A stretch of DNA of 41,540 bases, from IMG/VR virus record IMGVR_UViG_3300025128_000103, positions 1 through 41,540 of that record, one strand, 5' to 3'. The position numbers were made by a program, and so were the translations under genes. This DNA is from a virus. The notes beneath the pieces were generated by a model. The model made no database searches. It saw only the letters and a list, made by a program, of their open reading frames with translations, and had not been told where the DNA came from. Below are positions 2,076-34,488 of this stretch, piece after piece; within the stretch, counting starts at the first letter, position 1; each line of letters opens with the position of its first letter.

Positions 2076-2416
2076 TATGGAAATTATTCTTGAACTTGAA
2101 AATAGCGATCTTGTTATTGAGTTTGAACCTGATTTCGTGCGTGAAAACTTCTCAGACAGAACAGACGTTCTCTGGAAATTTCACAACGGCACACATTCGG
2201 GAGTATTGGCAGATATGTTCGATTGCTTACAGGAGGATACAGACACCAGAACAAATTTATTACCCACTCTGCGATTGTGCCGTTGACACGATGAGACAAA
2301 AATTTGATAACAGTACAAAAGTTGAAACTATGAAAAAAGCGCAGTCAGATGAACTAGCAACATTAATTAGACTTAATTGTAACGAATACAGGATTAGTGG
2401 CAGAAGAACTAAATAA
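2060..2416 (+). CDS. Predicted lipoprotein of the lysis cassette, function unknown
   Basis: 118 residues. The N-terminus is basic then hydrophobic (IAILLLSLNLISC), with L-I-S-C forming a good lipobox, so the mature protein would be lipid-anchored in the cell envelope. The mature part has three further cysteines in the middle (ICS, LCDC) and is largely helical and charged. The gene begins 16 bases before the endolysin stop and ends 20 bases inside the terminase gene, so it is embedded in the same transcript. A second spanin-type lipoprotein, or a superinfection-exclusion lipoprotein, are both possible. The start could also be the TTG at 2072, which would shorten the positive N-region. Confidence 0.6.
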   Translation: MVIRLIWKLFLNLKIAILLLSLNLISCVKTSQTEQTFSGNFTTAHIREYWQICSIAYRRIQTPEQIYYPLCDCAVDTMRQKFDNSTKVETMKKAQSDELATLIRLNCNEYRISGRRTK

Positions 2417-15560: not shown

Positions 15561-18500
15561 ATGAAATATGATTTTTCTGGCATCGATGAGATGCAACCCG
15601 CAGAGTCAACTTCACCATATGATTTTTCTGGGATTGATGATATGGTTGATTCTTCACTTCCACCTGCACCCGTCCCCGCTACACCTGAAGAATTTCAAAG
15701 ACTATCTCCACATCCTCCAGTAACTCCAGAAGTAATTAGGGACTTTATCCCTGCTGTTCAGGCAGGGGAAAATACATACCAACTAAATAAGGCAATTGGT
15801 GAATTGGGTAGGCATCAATATATTGAAGAAAATCCTTGGGAAGCAGGACTTGAAACTTTATTTACTGTCCTTTCTGGTGGATTACCTGAACAGACAAAAA
15901 CACCTGAAGAATTAGCTGCATTAAAGCAAGAGGTTGCAGATAGAAGTAGGGTTCAGGAATCTCAGCGAGTAATGGGGACTAAAGACTACGAAGGAATTCA
16001 GGATATTCCAAGTTTCTTAGCTGGGAATATCGGGGCATCTTTACCCGCAATGGGTAGGTCAATAGCATCGTTAGGGACGATGACCCCGGCCATTATGAGA
16101 GATGAGATTAACGCTAACCTAGCGGAGATGGAAAATTTGTCTAGCAAAGAACGCATGGCATTAGCGAAAGGTGGCGGTCTTTTCGCAGCTGCTCTAGAAA
16201 ATATCGGCCTTGGGTTTATGATTAAAGGTATTCCACCAAGCGTATTCGCTAAAATGGGTTTTAAGAAAGCAGCTGATTTAATTGAATCAAATATTGCTGC
16301 AAAAGTCCTTTCAAAAGGGGGGGTTGCATCTATAACTGAAGGAGTTACAGAAGGTGGCCAAGATGCAACAGGAATCGCAGCTGAATTAATAGCAGGAAAA
16401 GAATTTCAGGAAGGAGAAATTGCAGAAAGAATAAAGGAAGCAATTATAATAGGGTCAACAACTGGTGCAGCCTTGTCCTCTGGTGGAACGGCAATTGTAG
16501 AAGTCCCGAAAGCAGTTGCAAAGAAAGTTACAAAAAAAATAACGCCAGAGCAAACGGAGATTGTAGAACCTAAGTTTGATAAGACTACTGATCGCAGGAA
16601 AAAATTAACTATAGAGGAACCAGAGTTAGATGTTAAAGAAGATGACGGAACATTTATTGATGATAAAGGACAGAAATGGCAGAAGATAGAAGTTGATGAG
16701 AACTTAGAACTTAAAGAGGATATTGTACCAGAGCCTACGGAAGCAGAAGCTGCGGAAGTCTTTGAGGATAAACCGCCTAAGAAAAAACTTTTAAAAAAGA
16801 AAGGGGGTGATCAAAAGTCTGATGCAGAAACTGTAGAGACAACGTATGTCCCGGCTGAATCTGCCCCCGAAACGGTGTCCACACCACCTGAAGGGGAAGT
16901 CTCTCCAGCGGTTCAGCCGGATGTTAAGGTAGAGGATGAAGATGTAATAGTACTTGGTAACAAGTTTAGAACTATAGAAGATGATGGGACCGATACAAAT
17001 ACTGATTTAAGTAATGCATTAGATAAAATAAATAATCTAGGCAAACGTAATCCTTTAAATGAAAAAGAAATTATTATCGGAGATACAGCAGTAGAAGTTA
17101 ATGTGAATACACTTGAAGATAATGCACTTGAAGTAAAAAGTATAAGAAGTTGGGAAAAAGGGAAGGGTAATGCAACTAAGACATTAAAAAAGATTTTAGA
17201 TATAGCAAAGGAAGAGAAGATTAATTTAGTTGGAACAGCAAAAGCTGTCGGTGAGGATGGGGCAACAACTCCTCAATTAGAAAAATGGTATAAAAAATTA
17301 GGGTACGAAGACCATATAAAAGGACAGATTATTTTTAGGGGGGATAAGGAACAACCCACCACCACAGAAGTGGAAGTCGAGCCAGCAGTTTCCCCGAAAC
17401 CTAAAACTAACGTAGTAAAGAAAGAAGACTTCACGCAGACGTTGTTGGCTCGAAAGCAAGAGAAGGAGTTTGATAAATTGGCGGAGGGGATTGAGCCGGA
17501 TGATGATGTCGGTATCAGGATAACCGATGAGGATAGAGCAATACAGGAAGAAGAAGAATTAATGGCCGCCAAGTACAAGGGGGGTGAAATGCAATTCACT
17601 CCAATGCCAGACCCAAAGACTTCAACTTTAGAAGAACGAAAAGCTTGGAGAGTGACTGCTAAAAAAGAAATGAAGGAGTTAAAGGAACGAGAAGAGTCTT
17701 TTAAAAATAGAACCATAGAAGAGGTGAAACAGGAAGTTGAATCAAGTATAGGTAGAAAGACACTAAAAAAACTAACAAAGAATGGGGCAGTTACTATCCT
17801 TCAAAGTGAGTCAGACTTCTTAAAGGAGGAAGGTGTTAGTCCTGCAAATGCAGGGCAGAATATAACAGCTGCGTTTGTTCCTAAAACGGGTAAAGTTTAT
17901 ATAATTGCTGATAATTCCCCAAGGGGTACGGGGGGTGGATCAATTCTCCACGAAGTTGGGGAACACGCTGCCCTTGAACAGATGGTAGGTGAGAAACAAT
18001 ATAAAGATATATCGAAGAGTTTTGATAAACTCCTAGAGGATGGGGATGAGATAGCAAAATTAGCAAACTCATTAGTCCCTGAAGCTACCCCAAAAGATAA
18101 GGTAAAGTCTGAACAGATAGCATACTTAATTCAGAGCGTTGAAAATAAGAAAGTAAAGGGGGAAGAGGTTAGCAGTAAAACTCGCAATTTAGTTTCACGC
18201 ATATATAACCTTATCCGCAAATGGTTCCAGAATCTTCCTGCATATAGAAAATTTGCAAGCCGCTCCGCCTTCAGTAAATTAGAATCAGGGGAATTCCTTT
18301 CCCCTGAGAATATAACATCTCTTGCACGGGTCGCTGTTGATTTTCATGCGGAGGGTAAAACTAAAAAGCCAGCCAAAACTGGGAAGTCAAGACTATTTAC
18401 TGACCTTGTCCAGCAGTATGTAGACGGTAAAATTACACATGAAGAACTTATTAAAAAACAAAATGAAAGATCACCTATAAAACCATTTGAATCTGTGCCT

Positions 18501-21500
18501 GTCTTGCTTAAACCAAAACAGGTAGAAGAATTAATTAGGTCACAACATTCTCAGCGGGGTGTAGACCGTGGGATTGTTGGTGTAAATAAACCATTGCCGG
18601 AAGAAGGTGATTCTATTGCTACCCGAATTGATATTAAAACCTTTATTAATAAAGGGGAGTATGTTGTAACTCTCCACAGCAAACCAAAAGGTGGGGAAGT
18701 CTTAGGTTATAGTTCTGCCATTTGGATGGTATCTCCAAAAGATGGTGGTAAGGTAGAATTCTACACAGACCCAAAACGATCTGTCGAAATAGCATTAGAT
18801 GAAAAAAATAAATCCACTTTTGCAAGGGTATGGGGGGAAGCTAAAGGGAAGACACAAGATGAAGCACACGCACAAGCCGAAGCAATAATGAATGGGACAG
18901 ACCCGGATGCAGACCAATGGCAACAGGTACACATGAACCCGGAACGTGCATCTTATTTCTACGACATGGACGGTACACCTGTTGTTGAAGCAGATGAAGT
19001 GATCCAAGTAGGAGGATTAGTTTACGCTAAGAATATAGTAAACAGTACGGTAGATGACCCAAGATTTACCGCTGATTTGGGGGAGAGGGGGACAGTCCAA
19101 TTCTCCAAGACTGAAGCAGAGCCGGAACCAGAGATAGGTCAGTCTAAGTTTGTGGATGTGAATGAAGCTATTAAAGAAGCACACGGCAAGAAACCTAAGA
19201 AAAAGGATTCGATCTGGACCAAGACTAAGGAAGCAGCTGCTACAATAAAGGAACAGATGACCCGTTCCCATAAACTTCTTGATCCAAAGAAGTTTGGTTT
19301 GACTACGGATTATCTCAGGTTGATGCAGGAGACAGGATCATATGCTAAACATAAGGCATACACCGATGTTTATTCTGTTGTCGGGGAGATGAATGACAAA
19401 GAGCAGATGGTGCTTTCGATGAACCTGATCCTCCCTGATATGCTGAAGGATATAGAATCTGGGTTGCTTGATCCGAAAGAGGGGTTGCCTTTTAATTACG
19501 AGAGTGTTGAACAGGTTAAGGAAGACCTAGAAAACTTCCAAAGACAGGCGAAGGAAATTAGCGAGGATGCATCTACAGACATAGATATTAATAAGTCTAT
19601 TGAAAAACGCCAAGACTTTATGAAGGAGTTGCGTGATGAGTTAGTCGATGAAGGTCTACTGCGTGAGGAAGTTGCGAAGGATGATAGATATTTTCACCAT
19701 CAGGTGCTTGAGTATCTGAATATGGAGGATGCTGGCTATACCTCATCCGTGGAAAAACCCGGTATTAGGCAGACTAAAAAGGGTTGGCAGAAGGCAAGAA
19801 CTGGATCAACAAAAGACTACAATACTAAGTATCTAGATGCAGAATTTGAGGTGCTATCTCAGGCCCGTCAGCAGCTGGAAGCTAAAAGATTATTAGATAA
19901 GATTAAGGCAGCAAATGATAAAGGGAAAGAAGCAAGAAAACTCCAAAAGGAATTTAATACTTTTTTAAAGAGCGAGAATAAAAAGGAACTAACTCTTGAA
20001 CAAACATTAAAAGAGTCTGAGGATTTTGACGGGTATGTAGTCTGGGAACCAAATCCCAAAGGGACTTGGTTTCAGACATACTCAGTCGCAGACAAAGTAG
20101 CACAGCAAGTTTTAGAAGACGGTGGTGCGGAGGTTACTGAGGTACAGAAAATTCTAGCTAAAGGTGCAAAAGAAAAATGGGTTATCCCGGCGGAATTAGC
20201 GGAGACTCTTAACAAGCCAGTTAAAAATGAGAATGAAGCCTTCCCAACAAGGTGGGCGAGAAAGGGTATCCGAGGATGGAAAATCTGGACACTTCTAAAT
20301 CCATTCAGAGTATTGAGATATAACCTGAATAATATGTCAGGTGACTTGGATATAGCAGTTGCATATGCTCCCGGTATTTTGAAAGAATTTAAAAAAGCGG
20401 CAGTAGACTTACATAAAGAAAAGAAAAATCCATCAGGTGATACAGCTGCGGAATTAAACGAAGCACGAAAGAAGGGGATTATCGATAGTGGTTTTGTCAT
20501 CACAGAAGTAGATGACTTCAGTAAGATGTACGAGGGACTGTTCGATCCTAAACCCTCTAACTCTCTTGAAAAATTAACATACAAGGGGAAGAAAATTCCA
20601 CAGGCGTTTAGGGAACTAACAACATACCGGGAGAACATTATGCGCCTAGCAGCTTGGCGGTATTTTAAAAAGAAGATTAAGGACAACCCGGATAAGAAAA
20701 TATACGCAGCATCTAAACAGACTGAGATTGACCAGATCACTGACCCGGAACAGAAGGCAGCCAAACTTGCCCGTGAATTGATCGGGGATTATGGGAATAT
20801 CTCTCATGCTGGACAGGCAATCCGCACACACTTGATGCCTTTTTACTCTTGGATGGAAATTAATGCCCCACGCTATATCCGCCTGATGCGGAATGCGAAG
20901 GCGGAGGGTACAGATGTTAAAGCGCAGCTGGCAAAGGTTGCTGCAAAACAGGTAGCTTGGAAAGGGACTGCACTAGCTGCAAGGATGGCAGCGATGTCAA
21001 CTCTAGTTTCTGCATGGAATCACATGATGTTTCCAGAAGAAGAAGAAAAACTGTCAGAGTTTGAACGTGAGCAGCTGCATATTATTCTTGGGACATGGGA
21101 TGGAGAAGTAAAGACTTTGAGATTTCAAGGTGCATTCAGCGATTTTTTATCGTGGCTTAGTTTACATGATGCACCAACTGATATTGCAAAGATGTGGAAG
21201 GGTGAGAAGAGTGTTACTGACCAGATCGTAGAGATGGCGAAGGCTCCTGCGTTAAAGGTAGTGGCAGGGGTAAGTCCATTATTTAAACTCCCCGCTGAAC
21301 TTGTATCTGGTGAATCTTACTGGCCGGACTTTATGAATCCCCGTCCGATACGAGATAGGTTTGAACATATCGCAAACGCCTTCAGTCTTGGCACGGTATA
21401 CAAACATCTGGCGGGTAAACCAAACAAAGGTTTTGGTGAGTGGAGCAAACTTTTAATCTCCTCTACTGACCCCGGGGAATCTGCTTACTATAAGAATTGG

Positions 21501-21854
21501 GAGAAGGTCCGCAAGTGGAGGGATAAATTAGGTAAGGATGATGTCGGAGGCTTTACACCAACGACAAAATCAAACGCCCTCTACTATTACAAACAGGCGA
21601 TGAAGTATCAGGACATAGATGCGGCGTGGAAATATTATCGGAAGTATATCAACCTGTCAGGGGGAGTTACGAAAGACGGGAAGATACCAAAGAAGACTTT
21701 GAAGAATATTAACCGTAGTATTAAACGTGCTAATCCTAAGTCGAGAATTCCCAGCGGAACATGGAATGCTTTCGTAAAAACTTTAACTCCGGCGGAGAAG
21801 AAAACTTGGAACGAGGGTATTAAATGGTATAACCAGACGTACAAGAAAAGATAA
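15561..21854 (+). CDS. Giant polyvalent virion protein with GNAT-like and LPD-type domains
   Basis: 2,097 residues, one uninterrupted frame. The N-terminus repeats the motif YDFSGID (about 3-9 and 20-26). A GNAT acetyltransferase-like module is visible around 497-597, with GKGNATKTLKKI as a motif-A-like loop and LEKWYKKLGYED as the typical last helix. Around 797-802 the sequence HEVGEH resembles a zincin helix, but the second His is one residue too far for canonical HExxH. Near 1125-1160 a NPERASYFYDMDG, then VIQVGGLVYAKN segment recalls domains of phage polyvalent proteins. From about 1580 the helical region with NPFRVLRYNLNNMSGD and GDYGNISHAGQAIR resembles a large-polyvalent-protein-associated domain (LPD38-like, from memory). 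Such proteins are thought to be ejected with the DNA to act on host defences. It ends the late operon. Confidence 0.72.
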   Translation: MKYDFSGIDEMQPAESTSPYDFSGIDDMVDSSLPPAPVPATPEEFQRLSPHPPVTPEVIRDFIPAVQAGENTYQLNKAIGELGRHQYIEENPWEAGLETLFTVLSGGLPEQTKTPEELAALKQEVADRSRVQESQRVMGTKDYEGIQDIPSFLAGNIGASLPAMGRSIASLGTMTPAIMRDEINANLAEMENLSSKERMALAKGGGLFAAALENIGLGFMIKGIPPSVFAKMGFKKAADLIESNIAAKVLSKGGVASITEGVTEGGQDATGIAAELIAGKEFQEGEIAERIKEAIIIGSTTGAALSSGGTAIVEVPKAVAKKVTKKITPEQTEIVEPKFDKTTDRRKKLTIEEPELDVKEDDGTFIDDKGQKWQKIEVDENLELKEDIVPEPTEAEAAEVFEDKPPKKKLLKKKGGDQKSDAETVETTYVPAESAPETVSTPPEGEVSPAVQPDVKVEDEDVIVLGNKFRTIEDDGTDTNTDLSNALDKINNLGKRNPLNEKEIIIGDTAVEVNVNTLEDNALEVKSIRSWEKGKGNATKTLKKILDIAKEEKINLVGTAKAVGEDGATTPQLEKWYKKLGYEDHIKGQIIFRGDKEQPTTTEVEVEPAVSPKPKTNVVKKEDFTQTLLARKQEKEFDKLAEGIEPDDDVGIRITDEDRAIQEEEELMAAKYKGGEMQFTPMPDPKTSTLEERKAWRVTAKKEMKELKEREESFKNRTIEEVKQEVESSIGRKTLKKLTKNGAVTILQSESDFLKEEGVSPANAGQNITAAFVPKTGKVYIIADNSPRGTGGGSILHEVGEHAALEQMVGEKQYKDISKSFDKLLEDGDEIAKLANSLVPEATPKDKVKSEQIAYLIQSVENKKVKGEEVSSKTRNLVSRIYNLIRKWFQNLPAYRKFASRSAFSKLESGEFLSPENITSLARVAVDFHAEGKTKKPAKTGKSRLFTDLVQQYVDGKITHEELIKKQNERSPIKPFESVPVLLKPKQVEELIRSQHSQRGVDRGIVGVNKPLPEEGDSIATRIDIKTFINKGEYVVTLHSKPKGGEVLGYSSAIWMVSPKDGGKVEFYTDPKRSVEIALDEKNKSTFARVWGEAKGKTQDEAHAQAEAIMNGTDPDADQWQQVHMNPERASYFYDMDGTPVVEADEVIQVGGLVYAKNIVNSTVDDPRFTADLGERGTVQFSKTEAEPEPEIGQSKFVDVNEAIKEAHGKKPKKKDSIWTKTKEAAATIKEQMTRSHKLLDPKKFGLTTDYLRLMQETGSYAKHKAYTDVYSVVGEMNDKEQMVLSMNLILPDMLKDIESGLLDPKEGLPFNYESVEQVKEDLENFQRQAKEISEDASTDIDINKSIEKRQDFMKELRDELVDEGLLREEVAKDDRYFHHQVLEYLNMEDAGYTSSVEKPGIRQTKKGWQKARTGSTKDYNTKYLDAEFEVLSQARQQLEAKRLLDKIKAANDKGKEARKLQKEFNTFLKSENKKELTLEQTLKESEDFDGYVVWEPNPKGTWFQTYSVADKVAQQVLEDGGAEVTEVQKILAKGAKEKWVIPAELAETLNKPVKNENEAFPTRWARKGIRGWKIWTLLNPFRVLRYNLNNMSGDLDIAVAYAPGILKEFKKAAVDLHKEKKNPSGDTAAELNEARKKGIIDSGFVITEVDDFSKMYEGLFDPKPSNSLEKLTYKGKKIPQAFRELTTYRENIMRLAAWRYFKKKIKDNPDKKIYAASKQTEIDQITDPEQKAAKLARELIGDYGNISHAGQAIRTHLMPFYSWMEINAPRYIRLMRNAKAEGTDVKAQLAKVAAKQVAWKGTALAARMAAMSTLVSAWNHMMFPEEEEKLSEFEREQLHIILGTWDGEVKTLRFQGAFSDFLSWLSLHDAPTDIAKMWKGEKSVTDQIVEMAKAPALKVVAGVSPLFKLPAELVSGESYWPDFMNPRPIRDRFEHIANAFSLGTVYKHLAGKPNKGFGEWSKLLISSTDPGESAYYKNWEKVRKWRDKLGKDDVGGFTPTTKSNALYYYKQAMKYQDIDAAWKYYRKYINLSGGVTKDGKIPKKTLKNINRSIKRANPKSRIPSGTWNAFVKTLTPAEKKTWNEGIKWYNQTYKKR

Positions 21855-26241: not shown

Positions 26242-26645
26242 TGCCTGAAGTTAAAAAGAAAACGTGCCTTATCTGTAAACAGGAATATATACCTCGACAA
26301 GTTTCAACTCAGAAGTATTGTGGACTATCCTGTAAACGGAAGGCACGTTCAATTAAGTTAATCGCAGAAGGTATTCCCCGTAAAGGTGGATACAGCAGAA
26401 GCGTATATATCAGGACTTGGATGAAGGCACGGAATGAAAAACCACCCTTCACCGCCCCATGTACCTACTGTTCAAAAGAGTTATCTGTAGACGATGACTT
26501 CACATTGGATCATACGGTTCCGAGGGGACAATTAAGTTACGAACAAATTAAATCAGAGGAGTTTCTAGTCTTGGCTTGTCGGCAATGTAATCAAGCCAAA
26601 GGGAAAATGTCTGTTGATGAATTTACTGGCAAACAAAAAAAATAA
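26241..26645 (+). CDS. HNH endonuclease with N-terminal zinc ribbon
   Basis: 134 residues from a GTG start whose first base is the last base of the upstream stop. An N-terminal ribbon (C9, C12, C27, C31) is followed by an HNH core: CTYC (74-77), LDH (89-91), then CRQCNQAKG (113-121), giving the Asp-His, Asn and Lys positions of the family. The ribbon resembles that of the zinc protein at 22302. In phages, HNH enzymes serve as nicking or packaging nucleases or as homing endonucleases. Here the gene is stably fixed in an operon, which argues for a housekeeping role, though that is inference. Confidence 0.82.
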   Translation: MPEVKKKTCLICKQEYIPRQVSTQKYCGLSCKRKARSIKLIAEGIPRKGGYSRSVYIRTWMKARNEKPPFTAPCTYCSKELSVDDDFTLDHTVPRGQLSYEQIKSEEFLVLACRQCNQAKGKMSVDEFTGKQKK

Positions 26646-26661
26646 TTATCTATGGAGAGAT

Positions 26662-28809
26662 ATGAAAATAAGTTACTTTCATGGGGTGTCGCATAAGACC
26701 CCCGTATTTGTGGACATAGGGGAAGTGTTCGCAGAAATAAAAGATGGCAAACACAAGTCAATCATTCAGTCGTGCCGGAAGGCATTAGAATCAGGGGACA
26801 AGGACAAATACAATCTACTAAAGAAATCACTACCCTGCTACACCATCAGTTGCCGGACTGAGAATCGCAAAATCGAAACGCTTCAAGAGTATTCGGGACT
26901 GATGCAAGGTGATCTGGATGATAAAGATTTAGATGGTTCAGAGGATGTTGAAACTTTGCGTGACAAGTTATTCAAAGACCCGCACGTTGCAGCTGCTTTC
27001 ATTAGTCCATCCGGGCGTGGGGTTAAACTCTGGATCAGGGTAATCCCTGATGCTACCAAGCATAAGGATTCATTCTATGCAGCTGAGAAACATTTCAAAA
27101 CAAAATACAATCTCACACTGGACAAAAGCTGCAAGGATGTGGCGAGACTCTTCTTCCAAAGCTATGACCCCGATGCTAAGATAAAGCGCAACTCTATTCC
27201 TATTCCATTACTGACTGAAGAGCCGGACCTATTCGATGTTAAGTCAGAAGAGACTTACAGGTTAGAAGACTATGAACGTGCAGCTGAAGCGTTAAAGCTA
27301 ATCCCGGCGGAAGACTATCAAGTCTGGGCCGAATGTGCAATGGCCTTGAAGGATGGACTAGGGGAAGAAGGCTTTAAACTATTTGCCAGTTGGTCCAAGC
27401 AAAGTTCAAAGTGTAAGCCTAATGAATTGAGATACAAGTGGGATTCATTTGATAAGGATTGGAAGGGTGAGCGGATAACATTCCAGACTCTCTTCTTCCA
27501 TGCCAAAGACCCTTGCACTCACAAAGTTTTAGACAAACCACCAGTTCTGATTCAACGGAACCCGGACCCGGAGACTCTCCACTCCGGGTACTTTACCCCT
27601 CCGGGTTTCGTTGGTCAGTTTGCAGACTTCCAGACTGCACACTCAAGATTCAAGCAACCAATCATTTCACTCGCAGCTTCACTCTGTTTTACTGGTGCGA
27701 TGATCGGAAGGAAATACAGGACAGAAGAGAATACTAGATCGAACCTCTTCATCTCTCTGCTTAGTCCCACTGGATCAGGGAAACAATTTCCCCGGGACGT
27801 TATTAAAAAGTTTGATCAAGAACATGACTTGCGAATGTTCGGTTCAGAAAAAGTCACAAGCCGAGCCGCTATCGAAAGATTAATAACTTGGCGGCCCAGC
27901 TGCCTCTTCCTGATCGATGAGTTTGGGATGTACCTCAAACAACTGATGGCCACGACAACAGGATACCAAGCAGATATAATCTCAACCTTGATGGAAGTCT
28001 TCACTTCATCCACCGGGTACTACTATCCCCTAGACCGTGCCGCTCAAGAGGATGAGCGATTCTCTATTGACCAGCCTTGCCTTAGTGTATTAGGTTCCTC
28101 AACTCCAGATACTTTTTGGGAAGGATTGAATTCAGGCAAGATAAGGGACGGTTCGATGAACCGTTTCCTGATATTCCAGACTCCAGACAAACGCCCGGAG
28201 CGACACCGCCCGCCGATACTAAATAAATTTCCAAAGAGTTTAATAGATCAAGCCTTAACCTTTAGAGATACTCCCATCTCAACCAAGCACGGCAACGTGG
28301 TCCCGGTTCAAGGACACCCGGAGCCTATCATTCTCAACTACTCTGATGAAGCATTCATTTGCTTTGAGAATCTTGAAGATGAATGTACCAAGATGATTGA
28401 TGCCCGGACAGTCACAAGTTCAATGTGGGTACGGGTGACTGAGTATGCTAAGAAGATCGCCCTTATCATCGCAGTCGGTGATGAGAAAAGTTCTATCGAA
28501 CTAGAACACGCACAGTATGGATGTGAGTTGGTGCGGTTCCTAACAGATCAAGCAATCGTAAGTATCAATCAGAATTTATCAGACAATCAGAATGAAAGAT
28601 TGAGTAAGAAAGTCGAGCGGATAATTCGTGATGCAGGGAAAGGCGGCATTACTTCTACTGTCCTGACTCAGCGGACACGCTACCTTAATAACTCCCGTCA
28701 CAGGAAGGAGATACTGTCTGACTTACAGGACAGTGGTCTAGTAGTCTGTGTTAAGTCGGCTGTTGAAAATACTCACAAGCCAGTTGAAAGGTGGCACTAC
28801 GTTGGATGA
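26662..28809 (+). CDS. Primase-helicase (VirE_N/BT4734-like primase, PriCT-like region, P-loop DUF3987-like helicase)
   Basis: 715 residues from the ATG at 26662, behind GGAGAG at 26654-26659; the frame is open from 26614 but that overlaps the HNH gene. An archaeo-eukaryotic-type primase domain fills about 1-190, with the acidic MQGDLDD (81-87) and SGRGVKLW (117-124). A helical PriCT-2-like region follows (about 205-270). The C-terminal half is a P-loop ATPase: SPTGSGK (368-374), LIDEFG (about 417-422) and a GSSTPDTFW sensor-like segment. It would prime and unwind DNA for replication. No DNA polymerase gene is present, so it probably hands over to host polymerase. The stop overlaps the next start as ATGA. 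Confidence 0.83.
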   Translation: MKISYFHGVSHKTPVFVDIGEVFAEIKDGKHKSIIQSCRKALESGDKDKYNLLKKSLPCYTISCRTENRKIETLQEYSGLMQGDLDDKDLDGSEDVETLRDKLFKDPHVAAAFISPSGRGVKLWIRVIPDATKHKDSFYAAEKHFKTKYNLTLDKSCKDVARLFFQSYDPDAKIKRNSIPIPLLTEEPDLFDVKSEETYRLEDYERAAEALKLIPAEDYQVWAECAMALKDGLGEEGFKLFASWSKQSSKCKPNELRYKWDSFDKDWKGERITFQTLFFHAKDPCTHKVLDKPPVLIQRNPDPETLHSGYFTPPGFVGQFADFQTAHSRFKQPIISLAASLCFTGAMIGRKYRTEENTRSNLFISLLSPTGSGKQFPRDVIKKFDQEHDLRMFGSEKVTSRAAIERLITWRPSCLFLIDEFGMYLKQLMATTTGYQADIISTLMEVFTSSTGYYYPLDRAAQEDERFSIDQPCLSVLGSSTPDTFWEGLNSGKIRDGSMNRFLIFQTPDKRPERHRPPILNKFPKSLIDQALTFRDTPISTKHGNVVPVQGHPEPIILNYSDEAFICFENLEDECTKMIDARTVTSSMWVRVTEYAKKIALIIAVGDEKSSIELEHAQYGCELVRFLTDQAIVSINQNLSDNQNERLSKKVERIIRDAGKGGITSTVLTQRTRYLNNSRHRKEILSDLQDSGLVVCVKSAVENTHKPVERWHYVG

Positions 28810-29531
28810 TCCACTACCACGGAACCCCACTCTCAGGAGCAACTGAACAGCAAGTAATCTTTTACCGGGGAAGACACGCACTGATGTCTTGGCCTAGTTA
28901 TTCCCCTATCCATATACCAATCACAGAATGTTGCCGCAGTTTCTGTATAGACAATGGAGCATTTACTTTCTGGAAGTCAGGGCAAGATGTTAACTGGCAG
29001 GAATTCTACTCATTCGTTTCTGAATGGGTGAACCATCCCCGCTTCGACTTCTATCTAATCCCAGATGTAATTGGCGGGACTGTTAAAGAGAATGACATTC
29101 TATTAGATAAGGCTTTACCCGGGGGTGTACCGGTGTTTCATGTTGGCGAACCACTTGCCCGGATTGACTCTTTCGCTGACCGGGGTTACAAGCGGATCGC
29201 AATCGGGACTACTAAGGGGTACGAACTAAAGTCTCTGCTCTTCTGGAATGAGATGCGAAAAATATTTAACCATATATGTATTGACGGTGTACCTCGCATG
29301 AAGGTCCACGGTCTACGAATGTTAGACCCGGAGATTGTGGGAGCGTTCCCCTTCTCATCAGGGGATAGTACAACTGCAACTAGAAAAGCTACATTCAATT
29401 CCGAATGGGAGGGTTATCCGTATGCGCCAATAAGTAAAGCTGCAAGGGCAACGCTAGTCGCAGATAAAATAGAACAAGGGCAGTCCCCTTCATTCTACAA
29501 ATCTAAACCCATTCAACTGGAGTTAATATGA
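28806..29531 (+). CDS. tRNA-guanine transglycosylase-superfamily protein, DpdA-like (7-deazaguanine insertion)
   Basis: 241 residues from the ATG at 28806, which overlaps the primase stop (ATGA). Core motifs of the TGT barrel are present in order: CIDNGAF (47-53) for the DSGGF loop with nucleophile-site Asp49; IPDVIGG (85-91); AIGTTKG (132-138) for the IGG loop; and MKVHGL then SGDSTTATR (185-193) for the FDCVxPTR segment, with Asp187 as second Asp. The C-terminal zinc-binding CxCxxC of tRNA enzymes is absent and the protein is far shorter than bacterial Tgt (about 370). That fits phage DpdA-type enzymes, which exchange guanine in DNA for preQ0 or related bases. The next gene looks like a precursor transporter. 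Confidence 0.75.
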   Translation: MIHYHGTPLSGATEQQVIFYRGRHALMSWPSYSPIHIPITECCRSFCIDNGAFTFWKSGQDVNWQEFYSFVSEWVNHPRFDFYLIPDVIGGTVKENDILLDKALPGGVPVFHVGEPLARIDSFADRGYKRIAIGTTKGYELKSLLFWNEMRKIFNHICIDGVPRMKVHGLRMLDPEIVGAFPFSSGDSTTATRKATFNSEWEGYPYAPISKAARATLVADKIEQGQSPSFYKSKPIQLELI

Positions 29532-30013
29532 TAGCAATCGGAATTTATTTAGCCGCAATAACTGCGGCCAATCTTACCCTACTTTGGTTTGGTCCCGCCG
29601 CATCAATCTTTAATGCATTTATTCTAATTGGCCTTGACCTAACCCTTCGGGATAAGTTACATGATCAATGGGAGGGCCGACACTTGTGGCTAAAGATGTT
29701 TGTTCTAATCTGCGGAGGTTCTGTAATTACAATTGCACTGAATTTGGATGCGCTGCCAATCGCATTGGCAAGCGCAGCTGCTTTCCTTTTAGCTGGACTT
29801 GGTGATGCCTTTGTCTATTCAAAATTAATGGATGAAGAATTCATTGTGCGTAGTAACGGGTCCAATATGGTGGGGGCCGCTATTGATTCAGTCGTTTTCC
29901 CTACGCTTGCTTTCGGAATCTTCATGCCTGAAATAATTCTGGCACAATTTGCTGCAAAAGTTTGTGGTGGTGGTTTGTGGAGTTTCTTATTAAAAGGAAG
30001 GTACAAACACTAG
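29528..30013 (+). CDS. VUT/YhhQ-like queuosine-precursor transporter
   Basis: 161 residues with about five hydrophobic segments (near 2-22, 27-40, 54-72, 76-97, 119-156). The NAFILIGLDLTLRDKLH stretch (29-45) and the SNMVGAAIDSVVF stretch (112-124) are the hallmarks of VUT (DUF165) membrane proteins, to which the bacterial preQ0/preQ1 importer YhhQ belongs. It is shorter than YhhQ (about 220). The start overlaps the TGT-like stop as ATGA (29528-29531). The pair therefore suggests salvage of a 7-deazaguanine precursor for base exchange. It is the last gene of the rightward operon. Confidence 0.78.
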   Translation: MIAIGIYLAAITAANLTLLWFGPAASIFNAFILIGLDLTLRDKLHDQWEGRHLWLKMFVLICGGSVITIALNLDALPIALASAAAFLLAGLGDAFVYSKLMDEEFIVRSNGSNMVGAAIDSVVFPTLAFGIFMPEIILAQFAAKVCGGGLWSFLLKGRYKH

Positions 30014-30061: not shown

Positions 30062-30211
30062 TCAGGATTTTGTCCTCAAATCAGCTTCGACTAACTCATT
30101 CACATAAGTTACAGCTGCTTTAAATAATCCTGTGTCCTTTCGATGCTGATCCAATTTCTGCTGCATCTTTTTAGCAAGTACGGGATTGATTCTTATTAGT
30201 TTAGTTTTCAT
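30062..30211 (-). CDS. Small ribbon-helix-helix-like protein
   Basis: 49 residues. A short strand-like start (TKLIRINPVL) followed by two helices separated by DTG (about residues 12-28 and 30-46) resembles the ribbon-helix-helix fold of Arc/CopG-type repressors. Its start lies 11 bases inside the preceding gene's end, typical of operon coupling. It is the last gene of the leftward block. Fold assignment is tentative because the protein is so short. Confidence 0.5.
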   Translation of the reverse strand: MKTKLIRINPVLAKKMQQKLDQHRKDTGLFKAAVTYVNELVEADLRTKS

Positions 30212-30506
30212 TTTCTTTCTCTCTTTCTCTGGTGATATACCTACCGTAGTGTTTCATCTCAAGAAAATCGACTAACCTACTCAGCATATAATCATTAGAA
30301 AATTGTTTTTGTTCTCCAACTGGCCAAGACTTATCAAGTTTAGTCCTAACCTTTTCGTACCTGTACCTATAAGAATAAGTACCAATTTTTTGGGCAAGCC
30401 AATGTAGCAGGAACTTATCCAAGACAACCTCACGTTTATTCATACGGAACTTACCCCGGCCCTGACTCATTGCTGCTGTTTTCTTAACTGCTTCTATCCA
30501 AGTCAT
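30201..30506 (-). CDS. Leftward-operon protein of unknown function
   Basis: 101 residues. A very good ribosome-binding site (AGGAGG, four bases before the ATG) precedes it, and its start overlaps the upstream stop as ATGA (30503-30506). The protein is basic, with aromatic and Tyr/Arg alternation in the middle (TYSYRYRYEKVRTK) and a charged tail (REREKENEN). No signal or membrane segment is present. I do not recognise a family; nucleic-acid or protein binding is plausible from the charge. Confidence 0.6.
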   Translation of the reverse strand: MTWIEAVKKTAAMSQGRGKFRMNKREVVLDKFLLHWLAQKIGTYSYRYRYEKVRTKLDKSWPVGEQKQFSNDYMLSRLVDFLEMKHYGRYITREREKENEN

Positions 30507-30676
30507 ACGTCCTCCTTGTTTAAGATTGAATTAATTTCATCGGTTAAGTTATCCAAATCTTCATCCCTGTCAGACTCTGCTACTGACCCAAGTTCCAATT
30601 GGTTCAATAACTCTGTGTAATCCGATAAGTGATTCTCGCAGCGTTGAAGTAAAGTAATTAGTTTTTTGTTTGACAT
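30503..30676 (-). CDS. Small acidic helical protein of unknown function
   Basis: 57 residues from the ATG at 30676. A frame-open ATG at 30688 gives four more residues, but GGAGA at 30685-30681 then sits inside the gene and at ideal spacing for the internal start, so I chose the latter. The protein is mainly two helices, the second half very acidic (ESDRDEDLDNLTDE). Small acidic early phage proteins often mimic DNA or bind host enzymes, but nothing specific can be said. Confidence 0.55.
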   Translation of the reverse strand: MSNKKLITLLQRCENHLSDYTELLNQLELGSVAESDRDEDLDNLTDEINSILNKEDV

Positions 30677-30705
30677 ATTATTCTCCATTAATTATTATCA
30701 TAAGT

Positions 30706-30730
30706 CCAACTTGTACCGAGTTGGGTTTTT
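30706..30730 (+). terminator. Rightward hairpin with T-run inside the leftward block
   Basis: CCAACT (30706-30711) pairs with AGTTGG (30719-30724) over a seven-base loop, followed by GTTTTT on the plus strand. It would stop rightward read-through into the antisense of the leftward genes. The stem is only 6 bp. Confidence 0.4.
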
Positions 30731-30733
30731 CAA

Positions 30734-30770
30734 CCCCGGCGGGTCATGCTTGCGGTACGATCTGCCGGGG
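30734..30770 (-). terminator. GC-rich hairpin after the DUF2786-like gene
   Basis: CCCCGGC (30734-30740) pairs with GCCGGGG (30764-30770) with a 23-base loop, just past the stop of the leftward gene ending at 30778. On the minus strand it is followed by TTGAAAAA, so termination would be weak; it may only attenuate. Confidence 0.4.
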
Positions 30771-30777
30771 ACACTTT

Positions 30778-31572
30778 CTACATTCCGATTGACTTCTGAC
30801 TGCCTCCCGAAACCTGCTTGTTCAGTGAGATTGAATTCCCCGCAGATTTTCCCAATCCCCGGCCCATTGAACCACCCGCACTTGAACCACGGTGTGATCC
30901 AAATTTAATATCGGACCTGTACACCTCCAGTTCTTTGGATGCAACCTTGTATGCATCCTGAACCACAAGTGCATTGACCTGTAAGTCTTCAGACTTAATG
31001 CCCTCCGCCTTACGCCTTGCAGTCTCTTCACGGATACGATCTGCAATCGTTTCCGCCGCACCTTTTTTAAAGGCATTGCGGAAGGGCAGCCAATCTTTGC
31101 GTTCAAAGTCTTCGACTAGATAGACTTCATCCCCGTCTATTATTACACCGTCCTTTTTTGCTTCCTTGATTTTCTCTTCAAGGATACGCTCCACCGCACC
31201 TATCAGGTACTGTAGAATCTCCTTACAGACTACGGTGCGGGAAGGTTTCCCAACAAAGACAATATTCCTTTTCATTCTCGATGTTTTAGACCCTCTATGG
31301 CTAGTCTGAAACCAGTGATCACACATATTAGAATCGGCTAATGCCCCTGCAATTATCCCTGTCCAGAACACATCCTGCTTTTCAGATACAAACATATCCC
31401 GCTCTATTTTCTCTTCATCTCCTGCCTCGCAGATTAACTGGTCCGCTTGCAGTCCGTATGCTAACATTAACTCTGAGGCTTTTGCTGCTGCACTAGCAGC
31501 CTCTGCCTCAAAGCTACTGTTGGATAATGCCAACAGTTTTTTGATCTTGAGTAAAACCTTTTCATTCTCCAT
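30778..31572 (-). CDS. DUF2786-like protein
   Basis: 264 residues from the ATG at 31572, preceded by GGAGGTAC; the frame also opens at 31587, but that lies upstream of the ribosome-binding site. Residues about 8-37 (KIKKLLALSNSS, then EAASAAAKASELMLAYGL) match the DUF2786 helix pair found in many phage and some cellular proteins. The central part (about 60-200) is mixed alpha/beta with charged helices, and the last 40 residues are Gly/Ser-rich and probably disordered. Function of the family is unknown. Its start overlaps the end of the upstream gene. Confidence 0.75.
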   Translation of the reverse strand: MENEKVLLKIKKLLALSNSSFEAEAASAAAKASELMLAYGLQADQLICEAGDEEKIERDMFVSEKQDVFWTGIIAGALADSNMCDHWFQTSHRGSKTSRMKRNIVFVGKPSRTVVCKEILQYLIGAVERILEEKIKEAKKDGVIIDGDEVYLVEDFERKDWLPFRNAFKKGAAETIADRIREETARRKAEGIKSEDLQVNALVVQDAYKVASKELEVYRSDIKFGSHRGSSAGGSMGRGLGKSAGNSISLNKQVSGGSQKSIGM

Positions 31573-31819
31573 ATGTACCTCCATCAAATGAACCCATTAA
31601 TAATTCATACCCGGACCCAGTAAAGATAGTGACTTGCACTTCATCTGAATCCTTATAACCCTTGATTTGCAAATGACCAATCCCGTCATCATTTCCTTTG
31701 AAGTTATGAATAACTTGATATTCAATCTCTCCGTTAAAATCAAAGGGATTTTCTCCTAGATATTCCATCTCATCCTCGAACCCTGCTTTCAGTAGTTCTT
31801 TTTTTATTGCTAAAGACAT
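31562..31819 (-). CDS. Small beta-rich protein of unknown function
   Basis: 85 residues with GGAGAG as ribosome-binding site. After a short N-terminal helix it reads like an antiparallel beta sheet (EIEYQVIHNFKG, IGHLQIKGYK, EVQVTIFTGSGYELLMG), acidic overall. The last residues (GGTY) encode the GGAGGTAC used as the next gene's ribosome-binding site, so the two genes overlap by 11 bases. No family is recognised; small soluble early proteins of this sort are often host-interaction proteins. Confidence 0.55.
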   Translation of the reverse strand: MSLAIKKELLKAGFEDEMEYLGENPFDFNGEIEYQVIHNFKGNDDGIGHLQIKGYKDSDEVQVTIFTGSGYELLMGSFDGGTYGE

Positions 31820-31872
31820 AGCACTCTCCGTTTAGGTTTACTTATTGATGCTGTAAATCAACATCCGCCCGG

Positions 31873-31891
31873 CCCCTGCGACACTCAGGGG
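31873..31891 (-). other. Short hairpin between leftward genes
   Basis: CCCCTG (31873-31878) pairs with CAGGGG (31886-31891) over a seven-base loop, in the 86-base gap after the gene ending at 31906. No T-run follows on either strand, so a processing or stabilising role is as likely as termination. Confidence 0.4.
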
Positions 31892-31905
31892 ACAGAAAGA
31901 ATTGA

Positions 31906-32172
31906 TTAGTCATTCCAGACGGACAGACCGCCGGGAGATTCCCATTCGTAATCTAGTTTGTATTTTTTTAAAATATCTAGAATTATAGGGCTAATATATG
32001 GGTCATTAAACTGTGCGGGCGGTTCTGCAAATTCCGCATAATAATCCGCCCAATATCCGCTCTCGTTACTCTCTGCGCTGATCAAAAAACTTTCTGCGTT
32101 GTCGTGGTTCTTAGAGACAGGCGCATTTATTTTTTTAAGTTGATTGAATGCCGCTTGCATTTTTTTGTTCAT
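31906..32172 (-). CDS. Leftward-operon protein of unknown function
   Basis: 88 residues, starting one base after the stop of the small membrane-protein gene, with GAGGG as a modest ribosome-binding site. The N-terminus is a basic helix (MNKKMQAAFNQLKK); the middle is acidic and aromatic (SGYWADYYAEFAEPP, about 38-52) and the C-terminus ends in a Trp-containing acidic tail. No signal or membrane segment. Unrecognised. Confidence 0.55.
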   Translation of the reverse strand: MNKKMQAAFNQLKKINAPVSKNHDNAESFLISAESNESGYWADYYAEFAEPPAQFNDPYISPIILDILKKYKLDYEWESPGGLSVWND

Positions 32173-32173
32173 G

Positions 32174-32332
32174 TTATCCCTCGTTTAAATTGTTAAAATC
32201 AAATTCCGCCCGGAGGCTTTCAATTTCCCGCCGGAGCAGGACTTGGTCCAATTTGTAGCAACCATAATGCAGCAACAAGGTTGCTATGATTGACATTGCC
32301 GCTGCTGCTATTATAAAAATTAAATATTCCAT
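32174..32332 (-). CDS. Small single-pass membrane protein
   Basis: 52 residues. Residues 3-22 (YLIFIIAAAAMSIIATLLL) form one clear N-terminal transmembrane segment, followed by a charged helix (VLLRREIESLRAEF, 31-44) able to form a coiled coil. The start is preceded by GGACGGTAC two bases before the ATG, the motif shared with neighbouring genes. Small early membrane proteins in phages often act in superinfection exclusion or membrane remodelling; nothing in the sequence decides this. Confidence 0.6.
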   Translation of the reverse strand: MEYLIFIIAAAAMSIIATLLLHYGCYKLDQVLLRREIESLRAEFDFNNLNEG

Positions 32333-32346
32333 ATGTACCGTCCTGT

Positions 32347-32541
32347 CTAGTTAAAGAGTTGATCCAAAACATCTGTGGATTTAAAATTTACTTCGATGCC
32401 TAAGTCTTTAATGATGAAGTTTAAGACTTCAAGCGTTAAGGTCTTTTTCCCTAACAAACTTGCGAACTTCTTACCTAGTTCATTAGTGGGATAATATCTT
32501 GCGGTCCCGTATTCTATTTTCTCTTTTATTACAATCTCCAT
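32347..32541 (-). CDS. Leftward-operon protein of unknown function
   Basis: 64 residues. It starts at 32541 behind GGACGGTAC with two bases between motif and ATG. The sequence looks like a compact alpha/beta domain: a strand (EIVIKEKIEYGTARYY), a Lys-rich turn and helix, then LTLEVLNFIIKDLGIEVNF. No family is recognised. It is separated by ten bases from the gene upstream, so one transcript is likely. Confidence 0.55.
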   Translation of the reverse strand: MEIVIKEKIEYGTARYYPTNELGKKFASLLGKKTLTLEVLNFIIKDLGIEVNFKSTDVLDQLFN

Positions 32542-32551
32542 GCGTACCGTC

Positions 32552-32833
32552 CTAATCCTTTAGAGTGTAAACTTTGTTAACTTTATCTACATTAATAAAG
32601 TCTTCCTTTTTCAAAACTTCAACTACGCCCGTTTCAATTGCTACTGTGTAGCTGATCTTGCGGAATGGGATATGCTCCCCGTCCTGCAATCTTTCTAATG
32701 TCTTGTTAACCATGTTCTGCGTTATCTTAACCGTCTTGCCTGTTGCTACTCTTAGCAGCAACCATCCTGCACCTTTGCCTTTTCGCTTTGACAGGATGTA
32801 TTTTTTGCCTTGGTTCATTGATTCTACTTTCAT
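32552..32833 (-). CDS. Leftward-operon protein of unknown function
   Basis: 93 residues from the ATG at 32833, chosen because ACGGTAC lies just before it as in three sister genes; the open frame from 32860 has no such signal and would start within a hairpin. The protein is basic at the N-terminus (KRKGKGAGW) and then beta-rich (WLLLRVATGKTVKITQN, YTVAIETGVVEVL), suggesting an OB- or SH3-like small barrel. Nucleic-acid binding is a guess from charge. Confidence 0.55.
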   Translation of the reverse strand: MKVESMNQGKKYILSKRKGKGAGWLLLRVATGKTVKITQNMVNKTLERLQDGEHIPFRKISYTVAIETGVVEVLKKEDFINVDKVNKVYTLKD

Positions 32834-32851
32834 GCGTACCGTTTTGTCTGT

Positions 32852-32871
32852 GGCCCGCATTGAAGCGGGCC
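32852..32871 (-). terminator. Strong hairpin after the Gp88-like gene
   Basis: GGCCCGC (32852-32858) pairs perfectly with GCGGGCC (32865-32871) over a six-base loop, 17 bases past the stop at 32888. No T-run follows on the minus strand, so partial termination or mRNA protection is likely, giving the first leftward gene a higher dose than those after it. Confidence 0.55.
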
Positions 32872-32887
32872 GGGTTAGTGTGTTAAA

Positions 32888-33592
32888 TCAGTCAACAACA
32901 AATCCGCTTGTATCTTTTTTTGCTGGGCCTTTTGCGGTCAATCCTACAATCACGCCGGCCCCGTCAAGGAAGCGCAAATCGTGTTTGTCACCGTCAATTA
33001 CTTTATATTTTGTTGATGGTGAACATTGCAAAAATGTTTTGGGTATCGCATTGCGAAAAACCACAGCAACATTCCCCATGTTGTTTAATACTTTGCGAGC
33101 ATCTGCCGGGGTGCAATCTTCATTGTAGGAAAAAGTCAAATGATAATTGGCGGGTAAGTCTTTAAACCTGTTAGGGTTTTTTGTGTAATCGTAAAACTGG
33201 ACTTGCGGGAATCTTTCAAGGATAGTCTGTCCCTCAAACTTTATTTTTTCCCAGCGCAGATCACTGGTCCCGTTTAAACGTACTGCGGGGAGTTTGCCTT
33301 GTTTTTCACAATCACGAATCAGTTTTTCAATGTCTTTGATTAATTCTTTAAAGAATGCGCTGCGGTCATTTAAAAAGAGTAAGGACTTACGCAGTCTACC
33401 CTTTTGTACATTACTCATGCGGCCCCGTCCTGCTAAATTTAAACACGCTTTCAAACATCCAAGGGTTGCGTATGGACAGAAGTTTTTTCCTGATAGTTTA
33501 CCCGGGGACAAATACAGGATGCCTGTTAAGTATTGGCCGAGGTTGTCGGACTTAATTGTTTTTGGATTGGTCCCTCTTGCTAGTATTGCCAT
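32888..33592 (-). CDS. Gp88-like phage protein with conserved cysteine cluster
   Basis: 234 residues from the ATG at 33592, behind AAAGGTAC; the frame is open to 33697 but the likely promoter lies inside that extension. The N-terminal GTNPKTIKSDNLGQYLTGILYLSP and the cluster C39-x6-C46-x3-C50 followed by LNLAGRGR are the hallmarks of the phage family often named gene product 88, whose function is unknown to me. The three close cysteines could hold a metal or iron-sulfur cluster. It is the first gene of the leftward block and so probably expressed early and strongly. A conserved LNGTSDLRWEK segment follows mid-protein. Confidence 0.72.
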   Translation of the reverse strand: MAILARGTNPKTIKSDNLGQYLTGILYLSPGKLSGKNFCPYATLGCLKACLNLAGRGRMSNVQKGRLRKSLLFLNDRSAFFKELIKDIEKLIRDCEKQGKLPAVRLNGTSDLRWEKIKFEGQTILERFPQVQFYDYTKNPNRFKDLPANYHLTFSYNEDCTPADARKVLNNMGNVAVVFRNAIPKTFLQCSPSTKYKVIDGDKHDLRFLDGAGVIVGLTAKGPAKKDTSGFVVD

Positions 33593-33617
33593 TTTGTACC
33601 TTTTATTTGAGTTTTTC

Positions 33618-33662
33618 AAAACCGGGTTGCGGCCCGGACATTCAAGCTGATTTGCTGAATGT
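33618..33662 (-). promoter_or_regulatory. Structured 5' leader with attenuator-like hairpin
   Basis: Read leftward, ACATTCAGC pairs with GCTTGAATGT (33662-33638, one bulge), then CCGGG pairs with CCCGG (33637-33622) and is followed by TTTT (33621-33618). Two adjacent hairpins, the second followed by a short T-run, precede the Gp88-like start, suggesting attenuation or a protected 5' end. Confidence 0.45.
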
Positions 33663-33668
33663 GCTACA

Positions 33669-33697
33669 ATAGTAAGGGATATTTTATCAATTGTCAA
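33669..33697 (-). promoter_or_regulatory. Leftward sigma70-like promoter
   Basis: On the minus strand TTGACA (33697-33692) and TACTAT (33674-33669, four of six) are 17 bases apart. Transcription would begin near 33662, about 70 bases upstream of the Gp88-like ATG. Confidence 0.65.
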
Positions 33698-34011: not shown

Positions 34012-34488
34012 ATGCTACCAGCAAGCAAAAAATTATCAGATCAGGCCGCAGCATTCGTTGAAGCGATAGTCAATGGGAAAAACCAGACTCAGGCCGCTAA
34101 AATTGCGGGATATGCACACCCGGCGCAGTCTGGATATACTTTGATGAAATCACCCGGAATTGTTGCGAAAATCCAGCAAGAGCGGCAAAAATTATTTCAC
34201 ACGGATTTATGCAGCGTTGCGACAACTACCTTGCGGTCCATTTTGGAGGATAAAGAAGCAAGCAGCAGCAGCCGAATCGCAGCAGTACGAACGGTTTACG
34301 AGGTTTGCAATATGATCGGCAAGCATAGCACAAAAGATAATGACAGCAAGGCCCTGCATGAAATGTCACCGGATCAACTCGCCGGATTAATCAACACTTT
34401 AGAGTCAACAAAATCCGCAATGGCTAAACAAATTGATAAAATCCCTACTAAAAATGAGCCAATTATTGATGGTAAAGTATTGAATTAA
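34012..34488 (+). CDS. terS: Putative terminase small subunit
   Basis: 158 residues. The N-terminal helix-turn-helix (about residues 9-57: SDQAAAFVEAIVNGKNQTQAAKIAGYA, then GYTLMKSPGIVAKIQ) is the usual DNA-recognition domain of phage small terminases of the Terminase_2 type, followed by a helical oligomerisation region (about 60-140) and a short tail. It would recognise the packaging site and load the large subunit. It is far from terL (about 9.2 kb round the circle) and stands next to the control region, so a regulatory HTH protein is the main alternative. There is no ribosome-binding site in front of the ATG. Confidence 0.68.
   Translation: MLPASKKLSDQAAAFVEAIVNGKNQTQAAKIAGYAHPAQSGYTLMKSPGIVAKIQQERQKLFHTDLCSVATTTLRSILEDKEASSSSRIAAVRTVYEVCNMIGKHSTKDNDSKALHEMSPDQLAGLINTLESTKSAMAKQIDKIPTKNEPIIDGKVLN

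Follow-up and report, generated by a model that had tools for sequence, protein, structure and literature searches.

The stretch of DNA analysed here (the window) is the entire IMG/VR record IMGVR_UViG_3300025128_000103, a linear viral sequence of 41,540 nucleotides. Two adjoining plus-strand genes in it are the subject of this report: a compact singleton DpdA-type enzyme gene of the phrog_887 family, 241 amino acids (28806..29531; ATG at 28806, stop at 29529-29531), and a compact Vut_1/YhhQ-type transporter gene, 161 amino acids with six predicted helices (29528..30013; ATG at 29528). The enzyme ATG overlaps the stop codon (28807-28809) of an upstream primase/helicase gene as ATGA, and the transporter ATG overlaps the enzyme stop in the same way. 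Both overlaps had been reported in an earlier note made from the sequence alone, and their coordinates are exact. An in-frame GTG is present at 28791, ahead of the enzyme ATG. The primase/helicase gene is context only and lies outside the pair, which recurs in dozens of phage lineages.

The small enzyme was compared with known families by profile methods, and its membership of the TGT/DpdA family, as the earlier note had claimed, is supported. The protein, a predicted DNA-guanine transglycosylase, matches phrog_887 (PHROGs label 'queuine tRNA-ribosyltransferase') with an E-value of 4e-53. Its profile was aligned by hhalign to an alignment holding the DpdA of phage CAjan at 99.3% (E 2.4e-20, 164 columns), which joins it to the CAjan-containing DpdA group. 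A local hidden Markov model (HMM) of the enzyme relatives matches the DpdA of Salmonella phage 7-11 (6e-57), SW9 (2e-73), the DMCA protein adjoining a QueD gene (1e-46) and Rinkes DpdA (6e-13), which is located within a folE-dpdA-queC-queD-queE operon. With Rinkes DpdA as a bridge, tblastn reached CAjan at 4e-11 and SfI/7-11 at 2e-4 and 6e-4. A Pfam scan of the window enzyme returned no match, including none to TGT (PF01702) or DpdA (PF23859). The CAjan, 7-11 and Rinkes DpdA proteins likewise miss PF23859; this model therefore covers another branch, and its silence is compatible with membership of the phage DpdA group. Relatives of the enzyme were recovered from 183 phage records (each <60% identical), at least 583 IMG/VR stretches and 31 bacterial genome loci, chiefly of Pseudomonadota with two of Acidobacteriota.

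The putative active site is strictly conserved. Asp49 (DNGAF; codon 28950..28952, plus strand) lies at the end of barrel strand 3 and aligns with the Asp of CAjan LDSGAF and with Asp89 of E. coli TGT (DSGGF). His168 (KVHGLRM; 29307..29309, plus strand) aligns with the His of the long DpdA (KLHAFG). Asp187 (SSGDSTT; 29364..29366, plus strand), the predicted nucleophile, lies at the end of barrel strand 8 and aligns with CAjan CDSSS. In hhalign these three residues fall on D, H and D of CAjan, and D49, G51, A52, F53, P86, D87, H112, H168, R171 and D187 are invariant in alignments of 38 and 46 relatives. AlphaFold returned an eight-stranded triosephosphate isomerase (TIM) barrel (predicted local distance difference test, pLDDT, 89; predicted template modelling score, pTM, 0.86). 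The placement of D49 and D187 was assessed from strand positions in this model, not by superposition; the two aspartates named earlier as the active-site pair stand at strand ends. A fold search against viral models gave 31 matches passing E 1e-3. Most are queuine tRNA-ribosyltransferases or uncharacterised, the former predominating among those that bear a functional name; a Vibrio nt-1 protein is among the 31.

The enzyme has just four cysteines (42, 43, 47 and 158), and the CxCxxC zinc motif of TGT was not found in its sequence, in agreement with the description of a 241-residue protein lacking the zinc site of the tRNA enzyme. This observation bears on whether host tRNA or some other RNA is the substrate of the enzyme, with import of preQ1 (7-aminomethyl-7-deazaguanine) or preQ0 (7-cyano-7-deazaguanine) raising tRNA modification and tuning translation during infection. 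tRNA is the best-known substrate of the TGT superfamily, and the database label is that of a tRNA enzyme. Boosting of tRNA modification was suggested by Hutinet et al. for phages with synthesis genes and no DpdA (PMC6884629). However, tRNA enzymes have the zinc motif that is missing here, in profile comparison the enzyme groups strongly with the DNA-acting DpdA proteins and shows no significant match to TGT, and all 12 searched bacteria carrying an enzyme relative already possess a full TGT of their own. We regard action on RNA as improbable. No tRNA genes were found in the record, and no Rfam match to a preQ1 riboswitch was obtained.

The second protein matches Pfam Vut_1 (PF02592) with 51.4 bits against a cut-off of 27.2 (E 2e-13), the YhhQ/QPTR family (COG1738), and belongs to phrog_4899 in PHROGs. 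In alignment it is 28% identical to E. coli YhhQ, and its AlphaFold model has six helices (pLDDT 90); a fold search of the PDB with this model returned no match. The profile searches thus placed both proteins where the earlier note had expected them, with the DpdA group and the VUT/YhhQ family. E. coli YhhQ is cited in PMC11130926 as transporting preQ0/preQ1, and the window protein is predicted to import preQ0, preQ1 or a related 7-deazaguanine. The importer might instead take another base (queuine, 7-amido- or 7-carboxy-deazaguanine, or another purine) that the enzyme inserts, giving a different DNA modification. Members of the YhhQ family differ in substrate (PMC11130926), and DpdA-only phages carry 2'-deoxy-7-amido-7-deazaguanosine (dADG) with little or no 2'-deoxy-preQ0 (dPreQ0) (PMC6884629, PMC8306585). 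The phage transporters are also short (mostly 153-170 amino acids against 221 for YhhQ), besides the low identity of the window protein. However, dADG may arise from preQ0 after insertion, and direct evidence for another substrate is lacking; a different base is unlikely, though less so than action on RNA.

Recurrence of the pair was assessed from both genes. Among the 80 enzyme loci closest to the window, a compact transporter directly adjoins the enzyme in 29 and overlaps it in all 29, mostly by 4 or approximately 22 bases. The reverse test used 108 viral loci fetched by the transporter alone, a set less biased than the enzyme-selected one. A phrog_887-type enzyme adjoins the transporter in 87 of these and lies nearby in 9 more (96/108). 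Six of the remaining 12 loci have another TGT-like neighbour: one Pfam DpdA (PF23859, E 3e-37, locus L179) and five phrog_15826 proteins, which were identified by a local model and in three cases confirmed against PHROGs itself. A TGT/DpdA-like neighbour is therefore present, in either gene order, in 102/108 transporter-selected loci, and in three of the last six a contig end cuts near the transporter. When enzyme- and transporter-selected loci were pooled and clustered at 90% transporter identity, 70 of 73 clusters had a TGT-like partner; pooled counts overstate the pairing rate, and the transporter-selected set gives the less biased figure. The loci are mutually related and the counts are not independent trials. 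In a tree of 71 enzymes, built by a quick method, the partnership was gained or lost 11 times by parsimony. Well-supported branches demand at least six of these changes, and each gene order occurs at scattered points across the tree. The link between the two genes is thus far stronger than could have been seen in the window sequence alone.

These data also bear on whether the two genes are unrelated accessory genes sharing a permissive spot, or a functionless relic. Many enzyme loci have no transporter, as hitch-hiking would allow. The 102/108 pairing, the two gene orders, the overlapping frames, the repeated gain and loss and the exchange of partners among three TGT-like families all argue against it, and we consider it very unlikely.

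A transporter search of named phages returned 14 records, and the pair was present in 9/9 distinct loci inspected. The phages concerned are PEAT2, AB3P2, Opt-719, Flyfo Tbat1_6, ECO111 5-P, Tunavirus LHE71/Lg3, Phc and RCIP0319, in which the genes are mostly annotated as 'hypothetical'. The order is transporter-enzyme in all except AB3P2. PEAT2 has the same pair, likewise after a primase; the description 'primase-coupled' therefore holds for the window and PEAT2 and fails for the other named pair phages inspected. The two-gene version called notable from the window is real, and less singular than was supposed.

In five transporter-selected loci the place of the usual enzyme beside the compact transporter is taken by a phrog_15826 protein (L205:629-1279, L215:2345-3016, L245:2162-2959, L172 and L248). 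This family has no assigned function in PHROGs. It has DNGxF and PDVVG motifs in common with the window enzyme family, and the two aligned by profile at 94.7% (E 6e-8). Because of the shared motifs and this alignment, phrog_15826 is probably a third TGT-like partner of the transporter and a new TGT-like family.

Several records met in these searches are described here in their own right. The gene at L143:2995-3759 (phage PKM.Lu.22.1) is labelled 'putative Co/Zn/Cd efflux system membrane fusion protein', yet the local HMM identifies it as a relative of DpdA (E 2e-62). H2/H75 (OR850331, 'Staphylococcus phage SA 1298 Kay', 1.7 kb) gave the same score as Salmonella phage DpdA genes. In the short 'phage' contigs H59 and H60 there is a YhhQ gene with 89.6% identity to that of E. 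coli, as in Salmonella chromosomes of the same list. H2/H75, H59 and H60 look like mislabelled or contaminated records. A second recurrent neighbour, a ParB-like gene, lies just upstream of or near DpdA in L144 (AH07), L141 (Rinkes), L150 (Nicole72) and H130 (Sonali).

Genes for precursor synthesis were sought in the window, the named phages and bacterial carriers. FolE, QueD, QueC and QueF were not found by profile search of the 41.5-kb record, and Pfam scans of its approximately 36 open reading frames (ORFs) gave no other pathway gene; no search was aimed at QueE alone. The earlier statement that folE, queD, queE and queC are missing accordingly stands for FolE, QueD and QueC. The right end of the linear record enters an open 891-amino-acid ORF, so 'no biosynthetic gene' holds only for the 41.5 kb. 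QueD and QueC are absent from 9/9 named pair phages, in a search in which the positive controls CAjan and Vid5 scored. In 3 of 12 bacterial genomes (Devosia, Ideonella and Rhizobium) a compact transporter stands beside the enzyme relative. Two of these three have no full-length QueC match, compared with none of the nine genomes without the transporter. The two, Devosia (G010) and Rhizobium (G012), encode a second Vut_1 protein elsewhere, as expected of salvage-only hosts. The QueC pattern fits salvage by need, in a small sample (12 genomes) in which the two are related. A wider screen, covering 398 genomes of a single order, recovered no carrier besides the one already known.

TGT/DpdA chemistry is a base exchange that proceeds through an aspartate-sugar intermediate. 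From the two families, their residues and their pairing we infer, with fair confidence, that the two genes are a salvage-type DNA base-modification cassette, by which a 7-deazaguanine is imported and inserted into phage DNA. The compact YhhQ-family protein would sit in the host inner membrane and import the base, with preQ0 and preQ1 as the likeliest candidates. In phage DNA the small DpdA enzyme would cleave off guanine, Asp187 forming a covalent intermediate with the sugar and Asp49 serving as general acid/base, and the imported base would be placed where guanine had been removed. As the phage makes no precursor itself, the host supply would be supplemented or replaced by the importer. The benefit would probably be escape from some defence that recognises DNA, with occupancy low or limited to motifs and not genome-wide. 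Overall, the observation made in the earlier note is confirmed and its interpretation is partly supported.

A number of results weigh against the proposed cassette. Roughly half of the enzyme lineages left after dereplication are without a transporter. Neither phmmer nor a profile search of the PDB matched the enzyme to tRNA TGT or any solved structure, and hhalign against tRNA TGT was not significant, finding only a local DxGxF match (DNGAF/DSGGF). In a Foldseek search of the PDB, archaeosine TGT came tenth (E 7e-3, template modelling score 0.52), behind mostly generic TIM barrels (tryptophan synthase alpha). Since the direct links to TGT are insignificant, the enzyme is assigned to its family through the DpdA group and the viral structures. 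Specificity varies within the YhhQ family, a Chlamydia member taking queuine (PMC11130926). In DpdA-only phages, 0.02% (7-11) and 0.13% (MED16) of G is present as dADG, Orion holds no modified base and its host is without the pathway, and most enzymes tested cut MED16 DNA, to which dADG gives no visible protection (PMC6884629, PMC8306585). An anti-restriction role is plausible and is the weakest part of the proposal, because DpdA-only MED16 has little modified base and no visible protection. The pair phages own an importer, and the key prediction of the cassette is therefore that their modification levels would be higher or condition-dependent.

The low occupancy also touches an alternative in which the pair alters the host 7-deazaguanine pool for another end, for example against QueC-like defences, and DNA modification is incidental. 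QueC-family proteins act in type IV CBASS (cyclic oligonucleotide-based antiphage signalling system) and qatABCD defence (PMC13279940), and the modified base in DpdA-only phages is too scarce for obvious protection (PMC8306585). Against this, the invariance of the catalytic Asp and His residues points to a working base-exchange enzyme, and no link to QueC-like defences was seen; such a role is highly improbable. Returning to import and insertion, a broader form of the proposal is possible but somewhat less than evenly probable: compact YhhQ may mark a swappable cassette, built repeatedly with enzymes of at least three TGT-like families, phrog_15826 among them as a new kind of base-exchanging enzyme, and with the base drawn from the environment and not from own or host synthesis.

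The remainder of the record provides the setting of the pair. The upstream primase/helicase gene (26614..28809, plus strand) has BT4734-like_N, PriCT_2 and DUF3987 domains and matches phrog_3022 DNA primase at E 4e-79; its ORF runs from TTG 26614, and ATG 26662 is the likelier start. The record also encodes terminase, SU10-like capsid and adaptor proteins, a RecE-like nuclease and RusA. The small terminase subunit gene (34012-34488) lies approximately 30 kb from that of the large subunit (2397-3974), and minus-strand genes at 30201-33697 (GP88 and DUF2786/DUF7168 proteins) are located between the two. The linear record may be a rotated or incomplete genome. No nucleotide-level phage relatives of the first 25 kb of the window were found. 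The only matches to a 2097-amino-acid ORF (15561-21854) were short and partial, and came from an uncultured phage and two Roseobacter phages.

Phages with DpdA alone, phage YhhQ and base uptake have all been proposed already (PMC6266253, PMC6884629). No earlier description of the compact-YhhQ/DpdA pair or of the phrog_15826 link was found in the openly searchable literature, subscription papers lying outside it. The pair suggests how DpdA-only phages, whose modification status has been called hard to predict, might obtain their base. A compact Vut_1 gene beside a TIM-barrel gene could serve as a marker for new base-exchange enzymes, phrog_15826 being the first, and the hypothesis is directly testable in the E. 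coli phages LHE71 and Lg3. If it is true, phage DNA chemistry could depend on nutrients from neighbouring microbes.

Comparison with known systems places the pair as follows. Bacterial and archaeal tRNA-guanine transglycosylases (TGT) share the TIM barrel, the DxGxF motif and two catalytic aspartates with the window enzyme, which has no zinc site and is approximately 130 residues shorter than E. coli TGT. DpdA of the CAjan/9g/Rosebush type is homologous, with catalytic residues aligned to those of the window enzyme, but is approximately 300 amino acids long, has a C-terminal extension and is accompanied by full synthesis genes. CAjan dpdA is essential for dPreQ0 in CAjan DNA, and dPreQ0 replaces 28-32% of G in Rosebush and CAjan (PMC6884629). 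The DpdA-only phages (the 'third group' of Hutinet, with Salmonella 7-11 and Mycobacterium Orion, and also Pantoea MED16) likewise have a DpdA homologue without preQ0 synthesis genes. Phages 7-11 and SW9 belong to the sequence family of the window enzyme but have no adjoining transporter. In the 2019 survey 76 phages were DpdA-only, supply by the host or uptake was suggested, and YhhQ was uncorrelated with any phage group (PMC6884629); uptake or host supply was also proposed in PMC8306585. The pairing supplies the correlation of the YhhQ gene that was absent from that survey. A phage preQ0/preQ1 transporter and salvage were introduced in 2018 with Vid5 (PMC6266253), and in Vid5, EC151 and PSTCR4/7 a Vut_1/YhhQ transporter also stands beside 7-deazaguanine genes (PMC6266253, PMC8310023). 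The transporter of Vid5 and PSTCR4/7 is long, E. coli-like (53-55% identity to YhhQ) and accompanied by synthesis genes such as queE, whereas that of the window is compact and has the inserting enzyme as its sole partner. Phage transporters of this family thus occur in two arrangements, the long form with synthesis genes and the compact form with an inserting enzyme alone.

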